DNA from: Paracoccus sp. SCSIO 75233
GTDB taxonomy: Bacteria > Pseudomonadota > Alphaproteobacteria > Rhodobacterales > Rhodobacteraceae
Length of the DNA: 64,000 nucleotides
Assembly: GCF_027912675.1 (NCBI RefSeq)
Contig: NZ_CP115757.1
Span: forward strand, 2,605,501-2,669,500
Reading direction: 5' to 3'
Below the pieces are notes generated by a model, which did no database searches, was not told the DNA's origin, and saw only the letters and a program-made list of their open reading frames with translations. The position numbers and the translations under genes were made by a program. This document shows positions 15,917-46,471 of the stretch, in pieces. Position 1 is the stretch's first letter. The number at the start of each line of letters is the position of its first letter.

Positions 15917-16671
15917 TCGAGCTGTCCGCCGTCCGCCACGACATTGACCGCACCCCCATCCTGCACGGCATCACGGCGCGGATCCCCAAGGGCAAGCTGA
16001 CCGCGCTGATCGGCCCGAACGGTGCTGGCAAATCGACCCTGCTGCGGCTGATCGGACGGCTGGAACCGCTGCAATCGGGTGAGATCGTCGTGGACGGGCA
16101 CGATATCAGGATCACCCCCACAGCCGAACTGGCACGGGTTCTGGCTGTTCTTGGCCAGCAGACCGTAATCGCAAGCCGCCTGCGCCTCGCTGAACTGGTC
16201 GGATTTGGCCGCTGGCCGCATCACCACGGCCACCCACGCCCGCAGGATCGTCAGGCGGTCGATGCCGCCCTGAAAGCGTTTGACCTCAGCCCGCTGTCCA
16301 GCCGCTTTCTGGACGAGGTTTCCGGCGGTCAGGCACAGCGCGCCTTCCTCGCCATGACCTTCGCGCAGGACACCGACTGGCTGCTGCTGGATGAACCGCT
16401 GAACAATCTCGACATGTCCCACGCCCGCGCGCTGATGGCACGGCTGTCTGAACTGGTGCGCGAGACCGGCAAAAGCGTCGTCGTCGTCGTGCATGAGGTC
16501 AACTACGCGGCAAGCTGGGCGGATCATATCATCGCGCTGAAGGATGGCCGCGTTGCCGCGACAGGGACACCCGATCAGGTGCTGACGACCCAGACCCTGA
16601 CCGATCTCTACAATACACCAGTCGAGATCATGCAGCACAAGGGTCGCCCGCTGGTCCTGCATCATTGCTGA
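15913..16671 (+). CDS. Siderophore ABC transporter ATPase (YclP/CeuD-like)
   Basis: A 252-residue ATPase with Walker A GPNGAGKST, a Q-loop at LGQQTVIASRLR, signature VSGGQAQRAFLAM, Walker B LLLDEPLNNLD and H-loop VVVHEVNYA. The NNLDM after Walker B is typical of the iron-siderophore importer ATPases. Its ATG overlaps the previous stop. It completes the binding protein-permease-permease-ATPase set and ends 6 bp before the convergent sdaA. Confidence 0.92.
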   Translation: MIELSAVRHDIDRTPILHGITARIPKGKLTALIGPNGAGKSTLLRLIGRLEPLQSGEIVVDGHDIRITPTAELARVLAVLGQQTVIASRLRLAELVGFGRWPHHHGHPRPQDRQAVDAALKAFDLSPLSSRFLDEVSGGQAQRAFLAMTFAQDTDWLLLDEPLNNLDMSHARALMARLSELVRETGKSVVVVVHEVNYAASWADHIIALKDGRVAATGTPDQVLTTQTLTDLYNTPVEIMQHKGRPLVLHHC

Positions 16672-28316: not shown

Positions 28317-28826
28317 TCAGTCAATCGGTGCGGGCGGATAGGGCTGCGTGACCAGATGGCTCTTGCGCTTCTCGTAGAAGGTGTTGCCGCCGGCGGTCAG
28401 CACATAATGCATATTGTTGTAGGGGAAACGGTATCCGTAGGTGTGGAAGAACCGTGCCTTCTCAACCCCCCGCTGCCGCTCACCGCGCAGAACGGCAATC
28501 GCCGCTTCCCGCACATCCGGCAGGGCTTTGGAGTTCATGGGACGCGTCATCACCCCCGGCGCGAATTGCCCCTTCTGCGACACCACCCCGCAGACGGTAT
28601 TCGGAAAATCGTCCGAGGCGACGCGGTTCATCACCACATTGCCGACCGCGATCATGCCCGCGCGGCTGGACCTGTTCGCCTCGAAAAAGATCACCCGTTC
28701 CATGCAGTTCAGATCGTTCTTGGACCCCCGGCGCATGGGCGAGGAATCCCCGCCGCATCCTGCCAGAACAAACGCTGCGATAAGACCGGCCACGGAAAAC
28801 CGGGCCTTTGCTGTGTTGATTTTCAT
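28317..28826 (-). CDS. SleB-type cell wall hydrolase, predicted lipoprotein
   Basis: A 169-residue protein with a lipobox signal (FVLAGC, cysteine near residue 24), so it should be a membrane-anchored lipoprotein. The rest is a Hydrolase_2/SleB catalytic domain. CMERVIFFEANRSSRAGMIAVGNVVMNRV contains the catalytic Glu, and GQFAPG and FHTYGYRFPYNN follow. Such enzymes cleave peptidoglycan glycan strands. It is monocistronic; one of the 11-bp repeat arrays lies 192 bp upstream of its start. Confidence 0.88.
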   Translation of the reverse strand: MKINTAKARFSVAGLIAAFVLAGCGGDSSPMRRGSKNDLNCMERVIFFEANRSSRAGMIAVGNVVMNRVASDDFPNTVCGVVSQKGQFAPGVMTRPMNSKALPDVREAAIAVLRGERQRGVEKARFFHTYGYRFPYNNMHYVLTAGGNTFYEKRKSHLVTQPYPPAPID

Positions 28827-29017: not shown

Positions 29018-29072
29018 GTGTACAGGCTGTGTACGTTCTGTGTACGCCCGGTGTACGCGCTGTGCAGCGGGT
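29018..29072. repeat. 11-bp-periodic direct repeat array A (GTGTAC core)
   Basis: Five consecutive 11-nt units: four start with a perfect GTGTAC (29018, 29029, 29040, 29051), the fifth with GTGCAG (29062). Unit spacers are 5 nt. The remaining bases to 29169 hold no gene that I can see. The array matches array B (42619-42673) unit by unit. It lies 98 bp past the gcvP stop and 192 bp before the SleB-type start codon. Confidence 0.85.
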
Positions 29073-29169: not shown

Positions 29170-32019
29170 TTATTCAGCCGCCTCGGCATAGTCCTCCAGC
29201 GGCGGGCAGGTGCAGATCAGATTGCGGTCGCCGTGGACGTTATCCACCCGCCCGACCGGCGGCCAGTATTTGTCCACCCGGAACGCCCCCGCCGGAAAAC
29301 AGCCCTGCTCGCGGCTATAGGGCCGGTCCCATTCCGCCACCAGATCCTCAACCGTATGCGGCGCATGACGCAGCGGGCTGGCCTCGACGTCGATATCACC
29401 ATCGGCAACCGACTGGATCTCGTCACGGATGGCCAGCATCGCGGCGATGAAACGGTCGATCTCCGCCTTGGTTTCGGATTCCGTCGGCTCCACCATCAGC
29501 GTGCCCGAAACGGGCCAGCTCATTGTCGGCGCATGGAAGCCGTTATCGATCAGACGCTTGGCGATGTCGTCCACGGTCACGCCATGCTCTGCAAAGTGTC
29601 GGGTGTCGATGATGCATTCATGCGCGACACGGCCCCGGTTGCCCATGAACAGGATCGGATAGGCCCCGGCCAGCTTGGCTGCGATATAGTTGGCGTTCAG
29701 GATCGCCGCCCGCGTAGCCTGCGTCAGCCCCGCCCCGCCCATCATCAGGATATAGGCCCATGAGATCAGCAGTATCGAGGCCGAACCATATTGCGCCGCA
29801 CTCACCGCGCCCTCGCCGCTGCGCGGATCGCCCGGCAGATGCGGCGCCAGATGCGCCTTCACGCCAATCGGCCCCATGCCGGGACCGCCGCCGCCATGCG
29901 GAATGGCAAAGGTCTTGTGCAGGTTCAGGTGGCTGACATCGCCCCCGATCTCTCCCGGCTTCACCAGCCCGACCAGCGCGTTCATATTAGCGCCGTCTAT
30001 ATAGACCTGCCCGCCACGATCATGGGTGATCTTGCAAACCTCACGCACGGTGTCCTCGAAAACCCCATGCGTCGACGGATAGGTAATCATCACCGCCGCC
30101 AGCCTGTCACCCGCAGCCCTGGCCTTGTCAGCAAAGTCCTCAAGATCAATGTCACCATTCGGCGCGGATTTTACCACCACGACCTTCATGCCGCACATCT
30201 GGGCCGAGGCCGGGTTGGTCCCATGCGCGCTTGACGGCACGAGGCACACATCGCGCTGATCGTCGCCATTCGCCCGGTGATAGGCCTGAATCGTCAGCAG
30301 ACCCGCATATTCCCCCTGCGCACCACTGTTGGGTTGCATCGAAAACGCATCATAGCCAGTGATCGTGCACAGCTTCTGCGTCAGATCCTCCAGCATCTCG
30401 GCATAGCCCGCCGCCTGATCCGCCGGTGCAAACGGGTGCAGCGCCCCGAATTCCGGCCATGTGATCGGCATCATCTCCGCCGCCGCGTTCAGCTTCATCG
30501 TGCAGGAGCCGAGCGGGATCATCGCCCGGTCCAGCGCCAGATCTCGGTCCGAGAGACGCCGCATATAGCGCATCATCTCCGACTCGGCCCGGTTCATGTG
30601 GAACACCGGATGCGTCAGATAATCGCTCTCGCGCAGCAGCGCCTCGGGGATGGCGGGCGCAACCGCTGGCGTGGCCGGGTCTGTGATCCCGAACGCATCC
30701 AGCAGCCGCGCGATGACGCTGGCATCCGTGGTCTCATCGACCGAAATGCCGACGCGATCCCGCCCGATCTTGCGCAGGTTGATCCCGTGGTTCCGTGCCG
30801 CGGCCAGAATACCCAACTGGCCCACACCGACCCGCACGGTGATCGTGTCGAAAAACGCCTCCGGCTCGACCTCGGCCCCGGCAGCACGCAGCGCATCGGC
30901 CACCGTCACCGCGTTCAGATGCACCCGCTGCGCAATCGCCCGCAGGCCGACCGGCCCGTGGAACACGGCATAGAACGAGGCCATCACCGCCAGCAGAGCC
31001 TGCGCCGTGCAGACATTGCTGGTCGCCTTCTCGCGCCTTATATGCTGTTCCCGCGTCTGCAAGGCCAGCCGATACGCCTTGTTCCCCTTGGCGTCGATGG
31101 AAACACCGACGATCCGCCCCGGCATGGCCCGCTTGAACTCATCCCGGCAGGACATGAAGGCCGCATGTGGACCGCCATACCCCATCGGAACCCCGAACCG
31201 CTGGGACGAGCCCACGCAGATATCCGCGCCCATACCCCCCGGTTCACGCAGCAGACACAGCGCCAGCAGATCGGTTGCCACGACCGCCACGGCCTTGGCC
31301 GCATGCAACGCCTCGCACTCCGCCGTAAGGTCGCGGATATGGCCGAAAGTGCCGGGATACTGGAAGATCGCGCCGAACACGGCCTCCGGCTCCAGATCCT
31401 CGGGCTTGCCGACAATCAGCTCAATCCCAAGCGGCTGCGCCCGCGTCTCGATCACGGCGATCGTCTGCGGGTGCAAATTCTCGCTGACGAAAAACCCCTT
31501 GGCCTTCGACTTCGCCACACGCTGTGCCATCGCCATCGCCTCAGCCGCCGCCGTCGCCTCATCCAGAAGCGAGGCGTTCGCCACCGGCAACCCGGTCAGG
31601 TCGCTGACCATCGTCTGATAATTCAAGAGGGCCTCAAGCCGACCCTGCGCAATCTCCGGCTGATAGGGTGTATACGCCGTGTACCAGGCCGGATTCTCAA
31701 GAATATTCCGCTGGATCGCGGGCGGCGTGACAGTGCCGTAATAGCCCTGCCCGATCAGGCTGGTCATGACCTCGTTCTTGGCCGCGACCGCACGCATCTT
31801 GTCCAGCAAAGCCGCCTCCGACAGCGGCGCCCAGCCCAAAGCCTCGCCCTGCCGGATCGAGCCGGGCACGGTCTGTTCGATCAACGCATCAAGGCTGTCG
31901 GCCCCGACAGCGGCCAGCATCTCCTCCATCTCGGCGGGAGACGGCCCGATATGGCGGCGGTTGGCGAAATCGTCGGGATTATACTCGGTCGGGTTCCAGC
32001 GGGTCATCTGTCCATCCAT
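29170..32019 (-). CDS. gcvP: Glycine dehydrogenase (decarboxylating), P-protein
   Basis: A 949-residue single-chain P-protein of the glycine cleavage complex. It decarboxylates glycine on PLP and passes the aminomethyl group to GcvH. The N-terminal signature is [20 protein letters not shown]; the PLP-binding Lys lies near residue 700 in [20 protein letters not shown]. Both halves of the internally duplicated fold are present ([19 protein letters not shown] and [19 protein letters not shown]). The ATG at 32019 is used; another in-frame ATG lies 12 bp downstream. It is the third gene after gcvT and gcvH. Confidence 0.97.
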
Positions 32020-33619: not shown

Positions 33620-33785
33620 GCCCCCTCTGTCCCTGCCGGTTCCGGCGCCTGAGATCGTTATCCTTCGGCGGGCCCTCACGGACCTCTCTTCAGAGTTTAT
33701 GCGGAAACGGTCCCTTTGCCTGAGAGATTACCGGGGCGGTTGCTCCTTCGGCCCTGACCTGCGTCAGCGTCTCCCGTTTTCCGCA
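33620..33785 (-). promoter_or_regulatory. Tandem glycine riboswitch upstream of gcvT
   Basis: On the minus strand the region reads as two glycine aptamers in tandem. The first has the conserved GGGAGA start, CCGAAGGAGCAA and CTCTCAGGCAAAGGGACCG. The second has ACTCTGAAGAGAGGTCC, CCGAAGGATAACGATCTCAGG and GGACAGAGG. The order and spacing are those of the glycine riboswitch that turns on gcv operons when glycine is abundant. It ends about 35 nt before the gcvT start codon. The boundary is approximate. No other gene is in 33585-33855. Confidence 0.93.
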
Positions 33786-33933
33786 TTTACGCCTAGCGGC
33801 GGCAGAGACGGCAGGCAAGCAGAATCTGGGCCGCGGGTTAATCATGGAGAAGTGAGTGACCGGGCCGGCAAAACCGCGATCTGGCCTCGCGAAAGGCTTG
33901 CAGCGGCCACGCGCCGATTGTCTAATCGAGCTT

Positions 33934-41889: not shown

Positions 41890-42681
41890 TCAGCCGTCAT
41901 TCACGGGGCGGGACGCTGCCTGCACCATCTGCATGCTGCAATCGTAAAGCGGGGTGGTCGAACCGAAACCGGGGTCGCCCGGCATGGCAAAGCTGATCGG
42001 CGAATTGTCGACATCGCTGACCTCGCCGGTCCAGTCCGCCCAGGTCTCGATACCGCCGTAGAACCGGCCATGCTCACGGCTGATGAATTGCTGCCCCTTG
42101 GCATCGAAAAGCTGCTCGCCACCGGAACCGAAAATGCGCAGCCGGAATTCGGTCAGCTCCAGCTCGACGCCGTCGATCACCTGCGTCTCGCCGGTCAGCA
42201 CGTCCTCACCGATATTGCGCAACCGCTGACCGCGATCGTCGAGCGTCCAGAAATCGAAATTGTCACGCCCGGTCTCGATCAGCGTCGCGAAAGAGGCGTG
42301 ATCGGCTGCCAGCGGGACCAGCTTGTCAATGATGCCATTGGTAAGATCGCGGGTCTCCATCCAGCGCGTCTCCGCGTCGATCCGGGTCATCGAGACCGGC
42401 CCTTCCGCGTCGAAGGTGGTCGAGCGCTGATCGCCTGCCGGATCGGCGTCGCAGATATAATACTGCGTCACCCGGCAACCCCGGTTCTGAACCGTCATCG
42501 TCAGATCGCATCCGGCAGGCGGCGCGAAGACGGCGGATTGCGCGGGCAAAAGGGTCAGTATCAATGCCGTAATGGCGATCAGCCAGAAACCGGCGAATTT
42601 CCAGCCGTTAACCTCTCGGTGTACAGCCTGTATACGGGCTGTGTACGCGCGGTGTACGCCCTGTGCGCCGCGATATCTCAT
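41890..42681 (-). CDS. Secreted protein of unknown function between gltD and gltB
   Basis: A 263-residue protein with a hydrophobic segment (FAGFWLIAITALILTLL) followed by PAQSAVFA, so it is probably exported. The mature part has four or more cysteines (CDLTMTVQNRGCRVTQYYICDA, and a C-terminal LYDCSMQ) and no domain I can name. The ATG overlaps the gltD stop (ATGA), implying coupled translation. Residues 8-23 are encoded by repeat array B, giving an unusually long N-region before the signal helix. It is 69 bp before gltB. Confidence 0.72.
   Translation of the reverse strand: MRYRGAQGVHRAYTARIQAVHREVNGWKFAGFWLIAITALILTLLPAQSAVFAPPAGCDLTMTVQNRGCRVTQYYICDADPAGDQRSTTFDAEGPVSMTRIDAETRWMETRDLTNGIIDKLVPLAADHASFATLIETGRDNFDFWTLDDRGQRLRNIGEDVLTGETQVIDGVELELTEFRLRIFGSGGEQLFDAKGQQFISREHGRFYGGIETWADWTGEVSDVDNSPISFAMPGDPGFGSTTPLYDCSMQMVQAASRPVNDG
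42619..42673. repeat. 11-bp-periodic direct repeat array B (GTGTAC core), inside the 5' end of the secreted-protein gene
   Basis: Five consecutive 11-nt units, cores at 42619 (GTGTAC), 42630 (GTATAC), 42641 (GTGTAC), 42652 (GTGTAC) and 42663 (GTGCGC). Spacers are 5 nt. Each unit resembles the unit of the same rank in array A (for example the first reads GTGTACAGCCT against GTGTACAGGCT). Because 11 is not a multiple of three, the array cannot be a peptide repeat. Confidence 0.85.
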
Positions 42682-44159
42682 TCCGCCGCGACCGCTTCGC
42701 TGCCGGCAAGGAAAGCCGCGATGCTGTCCGCCGCCTCCCGCCCGTCACGGATCGCCCACACCACAAGCGAGGCACCGCGCACAATATCGCCAACCGCGAA
42801 AACCCCGTCCAGACTGGTCTGGTGGCTGCGGAAATCGGCCTTGATCGTCCCCCATCGGGTGACCTCCAGCCCGTCCACACCCCAGAGCCGCGGCAGCTCC
42901 TCCGGCTCGAAACCAAGCGCCTTGATGACCATATCCGCAGGCTCGTCGTAATCCGCGCCCTCGATCAGTTCCGGGCTTTGCCGCCCCGAAACATCGGGCT
43001 TGCCGAGCCGCATTTTCTGCACGCGAAGCGCAGCGATAGCTGCATGTTCGGCGTTGATATTGCTGTGCGGCCCGCTTTCGCCCTCAGCCGCGCCGACGAA
43101 AGCGCCGGGTGCCGAAAGCCAGACGAATTCGACGCCTTCCTCCTCCGCGTTCTGCACCTCACGCTGCGAGCCGGGCATATTCGCCCGGTCCCGGCGATAA
43201 AGACACTTCACCGATTCAGCACCCTGCCGGATCGCCGTGCGGACACAGTCCATCGCCGTGTCGCCGCCGCCGATAACCAGCACACGCTTGCCTTTCGCGT
43301 CCAGCTCGCCGTCGGCGTAATCGGGGATCTCATCCCCCAGATCGATCCGGTTCGACGCTGTCAGATAGTCGAGCGCGCGGATAACACCATGCGCATTCGC
43401 GTTGTCGAGATCCAGATCGCGGGTCTTGTAAACGCCGGTCGCGATCAGCACCGCATCGTGTTTTCCCCGGATCGCATCGAAGCTGATATCCTCGCCCACA
43501 TTGGCGTTCAGCACGAATTCAACCCCGCCTTCCTCAAGCTGGCGATTGCGGCGCTCGACGATCTCCTTTTCCAGCTTGAAGCCCGGAATGCCGTAGATCA
43601 TCAGCCCGCCCGCGCGGTCGTGGCGGTCATACACGGTGACCTGAAATCCCATCCGCCGCAGCCGGTCCGCCGCTGCCAGCCCGCCGGGACCGGCACCAAT
43701 GATGCCGATGGATTCGCTGCGCTCCTGCACGGGCCGGATCGGCTGAACCCAGCCTTCCTCCCACGCGGTATCGGTGATGTATTTCTCGATCGCGCCAATC
43801 GTGACCGTGCCGTGGCCCGACTGCTCGATCACGCAATTCCCCTCGCACAGACGGTCCTGCGGGCAGATGCGACCGCAGATTTCCGGGAAAGTGTTGGTTT
43901 CCTGACTGCGCAGATAGGCTTCCTGCGTCCGCCCCTCGGCGGTCAGGCGCAGCCAGTCGGGGATATTGTTGTGCAGCGGGCAATGGCTCTGACAATAGGG
44001 CACGCCGCATTGGCTGCACCGGCTGGCCTGCTCCTTCGCCTTGGCGTCTGCGAATTCGCGGTAAATCTCGTGAAAATCATCGCTACGCTCGTCCGCCGCG
44101 CGTTTTTCGGGCATTTCGCGCCCGATATTGACGAATTTCAGCATTTTCTGCGTGGCCAT
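42678..44159 (-). CDS. gltD: Glutamate synthase small subunit
   Basis: A 493-residue beta subunit that takes electrons from NADPH. N-terminal cysteines for 4Fe-4S clusters are in RCSQCGVPYCQSHCPLHNNIPDW and ICGRICPQDRLCEGNC. The FAD site is IGIIGAGPGGLAAADRL and the NADPH site VLVIGGGDTAMDCVRTA. The start at 44159 (MATQKMLKFVNIGRE) matches the usual GltD N-terminus; an ATG 27 bp upstream is less likely. It is the first gene of the gltD-secreted protein-gltB group. The 144 bp before it hold its promoter. Confidence 0.96.
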   Translation of the reverse strand: MATQKMLKFVNIGREMPEKRAADERSDDFHEIYREFADAKAKEQASRCSQCGVPYCQSHCPLHNNIPDWLRLTAEGRTQEAYLRSQETNTFPEICGRICPQDRLCEGNCVIEQSGHGTVTIGAIEKYITDTAWEEGWVQPIRPVQERSESIGIIGAGPGGLAAADRLRRMGFQVTVYDRHDRAGGLMIYGIPGFKLEKEIVERRNRQLEEGGVEFVLNANVGEDISFDAIRGKHDAVLIATGVYKTRDLDLDNANAHGVIRALDYLTASNRIDLGDEIPDYADGELDAKGKRVLVIGGGDTAMDCVRTAIRQGAESVKCLYRRDRANMPGSQREVQNAEEEGVEFVWLSAPGAFVGAAEGESGPHSNINAEHAAIAALRVQKMRLGKPDVSGRQSPELIEGADYDEPADMVIKALGFEPEELPRLWGVDGLEVTRWGTIKADFRSHQTSLDGVFAVGDIVRGASLVVWAIRDGREAADSIAAFLAGSEAVAAE

Positions 44160-44303
44160 ATCGCTGCGCCCCCAAATATTACGCATTCCCCACTATACAA
44201 GGACGAACACGAATAAAAGGCAGCAAAGCTTACCTATTGGCGATATTTTATGCGGCGCTTCTGCCACCCTGCCCGCATTCTTGGGATATTAGGTCAGTAA
44301 TCG

Positions 44304-46427: not shown

Positions 46428-46471
46428 ATGTATGTTCGATGTATGCATCTCGTATCACATCTGTAGTGCGC
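46428..46471. repeat. 11-bp-periodic direct repeat array C (TGTA core), upstream of the AbrB-family gene
   Basis: Four 11-nt units beginning ATGTAT (46428), ATGTAT (46439), TCGTAT (46450) and CTGTAG (46461). The period and the TGTA core at the same phase are those of arrays A and B, but the flanking bases are AT-richer. The array ends 27 bp before the AbrB-family start codon. Confidence 0.6.

Follow-up and report, generated by a model that had tools for sequence, protein, structure and literature searches.

Dispersed arrays of 11-bp direct repeats in Paracoccus and related genera often keep place and orientation while their core word is replaced

The parC locus of plasmid R1 contains clusters of about five 11-bp direct repeats, which are bound by an assembling ParR. 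The sites for MatP (matS), SlmA, and Noc, as well as parS, are found as tens of specific sites per chromosome and are not bound to promoters. MraZ boxes are short direct repeats with 5-bp spacers at a single promoter target, LexA boxes are pairs of half-sites in SOS promoters, and DNA uptake words occur singly and in much larger numbers. The alphaproteobacterial LexA box has the consensus GTTC-N7-GTTC (PMC3091678), the CenR boxes of Rhodobacter sphaeroides read TGA-N8-TGA (PMC9275681), and the DNA uptake sequences of the Neisseriaceae are a repeated chromosomal word with lineage-specific dialects (PMC3630211).

The arrays that we describe resemble parC in being clusters of about five 11-bp direct repeats, but parC is one plasmid locus beside parMR, whereas the arrays lie at 34 or more dispersed chromosomal loci. 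They share with matS, SlmA and Noc sites, and parS the occurrence of tens of dispersed, promoter-independent sites over one chromosome, but those sites are palindromes and the arrays are tandem. MraZ boxes are alike in their 5-bp-spaced direct repeats and differ in their core, as the initial annotation of this DNA had noted, and in their single promoter target. The LexA box also has direct repeats in an 11-bp register; we reject LexA by the core, because the arrays read GTAC-N7-GTAC within GTGTAC, or TATATAC in the relative G008. CenR boxes and other OmpR/PhoB-type operators are alike in their 11-bp head-to-tail direct repeats and many chromosomal sites, but relative to CenR boxes the arrays have TAC instead of TGA, comprise four to five units, lie at gene ends and inside genes, and have lineage-specific cores. 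As the array cores are GTGTAC or other TAC-ending words rather than TGA-N8-TGA, we reject a CenR regulon. Finally, the uptake sequences are alike in having dialects, but the arrays are present as tens of multi-unit copies. A literature search that covered few subscription papers found no description of such repeats.

The window (the whole stretch of 64,000 nucleotides of Paracoccus sp. SCSIO 75233 that was analysed) contains two arrays, A and B (Table 1). The units of array A start at 29018, 29029, 29040, and 29051, with the partial fifth core at 29062-29067; array B starts 13,601 bases past the start of array A and has its partial fifth core at 42663-42668. Their joint unit consensus is GTGTAC-RSSCK. 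The repeats are real: GTGTAC-N5-GTGTAC occurs 11 times in the window with up to two mismatches, versus a mean of 0.82 in shuffled sequence (n = 100, sd 1.02, largest 5). The initial annotation had counted five units in array A, with a fifth core degenerated to GTGC; four are full 11-bp units and the fifth is a partial core, in agreement with that description. It had also taken A and B for a special homologous pair, perhaps linked as a duplicated or mobile cassette. We reject this, because their likeness (15 of 20 spacer bases identical) is ordinary, being equalled or exceeded by 40 of the 496 array pairs in the same genome (8.1%), and the flanks of the 34 arrays are unrelated. The alternative that it had offered, a multi-site element for a multimeric protein on direct repeats, fits the observed set.

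Table 1. Features of the window, in window coordinates
Feature	Coordinates	Strand	Description
SleB-type-domain ORF	28317..28826	-	TIGR02869, 44.2 bits, below cut-off 236.5; other neighbour of array A
Array A	29018..29067	+	Four 11-bp GTGTAC-N5 units, then partial fifth core GTGCAG
gcvP	29170..32019	-	TIGR00461, 1377.5 bits; neighbour of array A
Glycine riboswitch aptamer	33698-33786	-	RF00504, 64.4 bits; ahead of gcv genes
ORF after gltD	41890..42681	-	From the ORF list; listed start overlaps gltD stop
Array B	42619..42668	+	Four units (second core GTATAC), then partial fifth core GTGCGC
gltD	42678..44186	-	TIGR01318, 524.2 bits; neighbour of array B
Third array, weak	46430..46465	-	Four TAC at 11-bp spacing, without GTGTAC core; assignment uncertain

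Array A lies in the gap bounded by the end of gcvP (29170) and the start of the SleB-type-domain ORF (28826). The edge of array B is 10 bp past the stop codon of gltD, in the reading direction of gltD, and this array falls within the first codons of the next ORF as listed. The true start of that ORF, for which a profile search gave no NCBIfam match, may be later than listed (a simple gene caller starts it past array B). In several species (at L274 and other loci), the array behind gltD could be translated as the opening codons of the ORF that follows, with a signal-peptide-like stretch after them. The glycine riboswitch is the sole Rfam match in the window at the gathering threshold and lies away from the arrays.

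A genome-wide scan for further copies found many. Exact paired cores occur 73 times (33 forward and 40 reverse, against 2 in the reversed control), all on C1, the chromosome-sized contig of 3.27 Mb. If one mismatch is allowed then there are 103 paired cores, and the 100 among the matches listed are all on C1; because these are 100 of 103, a few weak arrays may be missed. We read 36 loci and left out two (L050 and L058) as weak pairs, which gives at least 34 arrays in this genome, all on C1. If arrays were as dense in the other 0.63 Mb as on C1, 6.5 would be expected, and none was found there. The 32 best arrays are conserved between about base −2 and +51 but no further, so that the build is a sharp 54 bp. 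The genome-wide unit is GTGTAC-R-S-S-C-K, and the last unit mostly has GCGCT, followed by GTGC. Outside the array, the flanks have nothing common to the copies within this genome.

With genes assigned by a simple gene caller, the arrays of this genome in gaps of up to 1 kb divide as follows: 18 are in tandem, 9 in convergent, and 3 in divergent gaps; four further arrays are in gaps above 1 kb. As a baseline we used gaps of 100-1000 bp in array-free stretches (72 tandem, 11 convergent, and 31 divergent). Convergent gaps are enriched for arrays (9/30 vs. 11/114, p = 0.008), and a depletion in divergent gaps is suggestive (3/30 vs. 31/114, p = 0.055); when every species is counted, divergent gaps account for 23 of 136 arrays, a figure that stands without a baseline. 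For 10 of the 34 arrays, a gene running towards the array has its stop codon within 15 bp of it. Some arrays have a start codon 90-230 bp downstream of them, some (in three species each) lie inside ORFs, and one pair lies inside smc of P. limosus. The neighbours include rpsO, chorismate mutase, prfC, and gltD, which were identified by profile scan, as well as rpoA-rplQ, pheT, metG, and acpS, which were assigned from sequence reading alone. Among the 20 neighbouring proteins scanned by profile, no common function was evident; beyond these 20, a DNA-binding neighbour that recurs may exist. The arrays do not show a domain restriction of the matS, SlmA, or Noc type: their distances to parS are compatible with a uniform distribution (KS p = 0.26), with 21 of 34 in the origin half.

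Paired GTGTAC cores were found in 9 of 37 genomes drawn from the genus Paracoccus, a patchy distribution. In a scan of GTDB, the GTGTAC form appears among the matches listed (80 of 116 stretches, seven of them left out) in several Paracoccus species and also in records of Roseicyclus, Roseovarius, Roseibacterium, Yoonia, Palleronia, Litoreibacter, Cognatiyoonia, and Planktomarina. (The seven, L090, L093, L096, L101, L133, L138, and L145, are simple tandem repeats or strays from other phyla, Burkholderiales, and unplaced MAGs.) We also dropped L111 and L217 of other genomes as too weak, and removal of duplicates reduced 149 arrays to 139. When their neighbours are compared, these fall into groups of orthologous arrays, the largest of which spans seven species. 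In 67 of 78 GTGTAC array pairs, which are not independent of each other, both arrays point the same way relative to the shared gene; the 11 exceptions are at the pheT place, in pairs with L114, and in one P. albicereus pair. Across twelve groups of orthologous arrays, spacer identity is 0.65 and core identity is 0.92 (inflated, because the loci were chosen by their cores), compared to 0.58 and 0.89 for non-orthologous arrays. The spacers are near saturation while the cores persist. Place and direction are kept between species, and for some arrays between genera, which suggests that many of the arrays are old. The copies in P. albicereus share long flanks (about −50 to +135), unlike the copies of other species. 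At L081, L085, L112, L117, and other loci of this species, these flanks include GTTGCGC words and, 3' of the array, a hairpin-like CCCAGCAAATGCTGG.

The 3' end of gltD was read in the best 30 of 58 gltD genomes, which were sampled regardless of arrays. Of these 30 Paracoccus genomes, at least 11 have a GTGTAC array there, G008 has an 11-bp array with a TATATAC core, and 18 have scores no better than chance-like matches. As the GTGTAC form is patchy and many relatives show no trace of it at gltD, the system is dispensable or easily lost. The initial annotation had let its case depend on conservation at orthologous positions: this holds for array B but, strictly taken, fails for array A. The SleB-type ORF is absent within 1.5 kb downstream of gcvP in all 29 other genomes read, and G008 is the sole case among the 29 with an array in that stretch (in the same orientation, 1.2 kb from gcvP).

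In this nearest relative seen (95% in GcvP), an exact search gives a single GTGTAC array. A core-blind scan of 400 kb of G008 gave five clusters with a period of 11 bp, and 0-1 clusters at periods of 7, 8, 10, 13, and 14. One of the five is a GTGTAC array, and the other four have TATATAC or near cores, in four to five units. Paired TATATAC cores were found in 2 of 111 Paracoccus genomes, namely G008 (14) and G523 (5); in G523, TATATAC accounts for part of the arrays only. We tested 20 TATATAC arrays (15 from G008 and 5 from G523). Sixteen of them, at 13 distinct places, adjoin a gene whose orthologue in another species is next to a GTGTAC array, while the same is true for 214 of 4,233 random points in G008 (5.1%; binomial p = 7e-18, uncorrected for shared places). 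All 25 TATATAC/GTGTAC pairs, which are again non-independent, have matching orientations with respect to the gene in common. In other words, the core word is lineage-specific, which the initial annotation did not mention, and it has been replaced at shared places with the orientation kept.

More generally, four TAC at 11-bp spacing match in 34 of 295 genomes of the family Rhodobacteraceae, and 17 of these have at least four matches. Among the matches listed, the cores are GTCATAC (G206 and G131), RCCATAC (G165, G195, and G205), ATACCGACG (G302, G321, and G329), RATTACC (G308), ATGTACG (G191), and GTGTAC (G246, G309, G316, and G344), and GCCATAC is also among the cores of other genera. The arrays in G205 (13) and G302 (7) match the Paracoccus arrays in build. 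Of the genes near them, 7 of 39 match neighbours of Paracoccus arrays, at 5 of 20 loci, vs. 1 of 69 far genes (p = 0.003); rpoA-rplQ is one such common place. The reversed control is unclean for this pattern, because it reads CAT at 11-bp spacing and is matched by CAT-containing cores. For example, G200 has 50 CAT matches in the control and 0 forward, and genomes like it probably carry CAT-type arrays. High CAT/11-bp control counts in G200, G292, G092, and others suggest more dialects. The dispersed array set is absent, by the TAC pattern, from 113 alphaproteobacterial genomes outside the family; 9 of these match the pattern, either in isolation or in a local tandem satellite.

The DNA around the arrays is C-rich in array orientation. 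The skew in this orientation is negative at 99 of 108 loci in six Paracoccus genomes, 23 of 26 other loci, 16 of 20 TATATAC loci, 9 of 11 further GTGTAC loci (from 12, one of which was left out for having no pair), 13 of 13 loci in G205, and 7 of 7 in G302, although these counts are not independent across loci, owing to orthologues. At pooled third codon positions, genes on both strands follow the skew near the arrays, and the effect fades after a few kilobases; between positions 16000 and 48000 of the window, it amounts to about −0.1 around both arrays and dies away near 46-48 kb. The array-free stretches of this genome show an ordinary two-replichore skew around parS, near 2.88 Mb. With regard to an orientation of the Tus-Ter type, fixed relative to the replication fork, most loci follow the local GC skew, yet just 20 of 34 sites match the present replichore. 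The link between array orientation and skew is real. It may be that the arrays were placed relative to replication and then moved in inversions, or that they are kept where the local polarity suits. We reject the arrays as the cause of the local skew at gltD, where third-position skew shows no difference with or without a GTGTAC array (11 vs. 19 genomes, the latter including G008 with its TATATAC array; Mann-Whitney test, p = 0.75 over the final 744 bases and 0.61 over the first 744).

We propose that each array is a docking platform for a putative cooperatively binding protein. On each, four to five recognition sites would follow one another head to tail every 11 bp, hence all on about the same face of the helix, and this chromosome would have at least 34 such platforms. 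The recognised core would change as a set, with the specificity of the protein and its sites evolving together. The replacement of the core at fixed places points to a reader that acts in trans; the 11-bp register and the four to five units point to cooperative head-to-tail binding; and the restriction to the chromosome, the gene-end and intragenic placement, and the mixed neighbours point to a chromosome-scale role. We infer that this role is in nucleoid organisation, segregation, or replication, rather than in control of the neighbouring genes. Several results weigh against this reading: the GTGTAC form is patchy and leaves no trace at gltD in many relatives, orientation does not follow the present replichores, the arrays are not confined to one part of the chromosome, and the depletion in divergent gaps is no more than suggestive. 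From sequence comparison, we would put it at close to an even bet that the arrays are multi-site targets of a fast-evolving, cooperatively binding putative protein with a chromosome-scale role. A more specific and more tentative version is that this is a Rhodobacteraceae-specific chromosome maintenance system, with a putative fast-evolving cooperative binder at about 35 polar places per chromosome, lineage dialects of one 11-bp code, and many places fixed across genera. With the same reserve, such a system could be analogous but unrelated to matS/MatP or parS/ParB.

A second possibility is that the arrays are operators of a transcription factor, such as an OmpR/PhoB-type response regulator, with the 34 sites as its regulon and a core that changed when the factor changed. 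The 11-bp direct-repeat register would suit such factors: the R. sphaeroides CenR site given above is an example, and factors of the OmpR family often bind direct repeats as oligomers, according to the authors of the CenR study (PMC9275681). Also, the arrays upstream of start codons are where operators might be, and central-metabolism genes such as gltD and gcvP are among the neighbours. This nevertheless seems unlikely because of the arrays that abut the stop codons of genes running towards them, because convergent rather than divergent gaps are enriched, which is not a promoter-like placement, because some arrays are inside ORFs in several species, and because the scanned neighbours share no evident function.

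Third, the arrays could be a dispersed repeat of the REP/MITE type, spread by an enzyme that reads the core, in several waves of amplification that each had its own core type. Gene-end placement is typical of REP/MITE-type repeats, and IS200/IS605 elements insert into one strand at replication forks, which would suit an orientation that is tied to strand composition. The patchy distribution fits as well, and the P. albicereus copies with their long shared flanks look as if they had spread recently. Many places are common to several species and others, such as that of array A, are not. However, the copies in this genome have nothing in common beyond the array, place and orientation are kept between species while the core is replaced in place, and no linked transposase was seen at the loci that were read, so we consider such spread to be quite improbable. 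Finally, it is very hard to believe that the arrays act as RNA or single-stranded DNA through G-U self-pairing of GUGUAC on the array strand: array B does give a good fold on the + strand (z = −3.35, equalled by 0 of 200 shuffles), but array A does not (z = −1.08), the cores of the other dialects imply that self-pairing is not kept as a rule, and we reject RNA structure because exchanging the spacers of 112 arrays in four groups left folding unweakened on either strand (z = −1.4 to +1.5), with no support for pairing.

The place and direction of a site set have been kept while its word was replaced at many sites, which, if the docking-platform reading is true, would be a rare natural record of coevolution between a protein and its chromosomal sites. 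The dialects should bring the putative binder within reach of comparative analysis and of a simple pull-down, and could give insight into how chromosomes are organised across a large family of bacteria.

Two minor observations concern other 11-bp repeats in this genome. The core-blind scan found a short 11-bp tandem repeat at G000:C1:1430065 with the core GGGTTTCG, which is not of the array type. Also, four TAC at 11-bp spacing with non-GTGTAC cores occur at three places, namely the weak third array of the window (Table 1), G000:C1:174595, and G000:C1:2057512. The local skew at the first of these is +0.038 in its own orientation, opposite to the trend of the other arrays, which also speaks against the arrays as a cause of the skew. 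The three places are perhaps remnants of another dialect.
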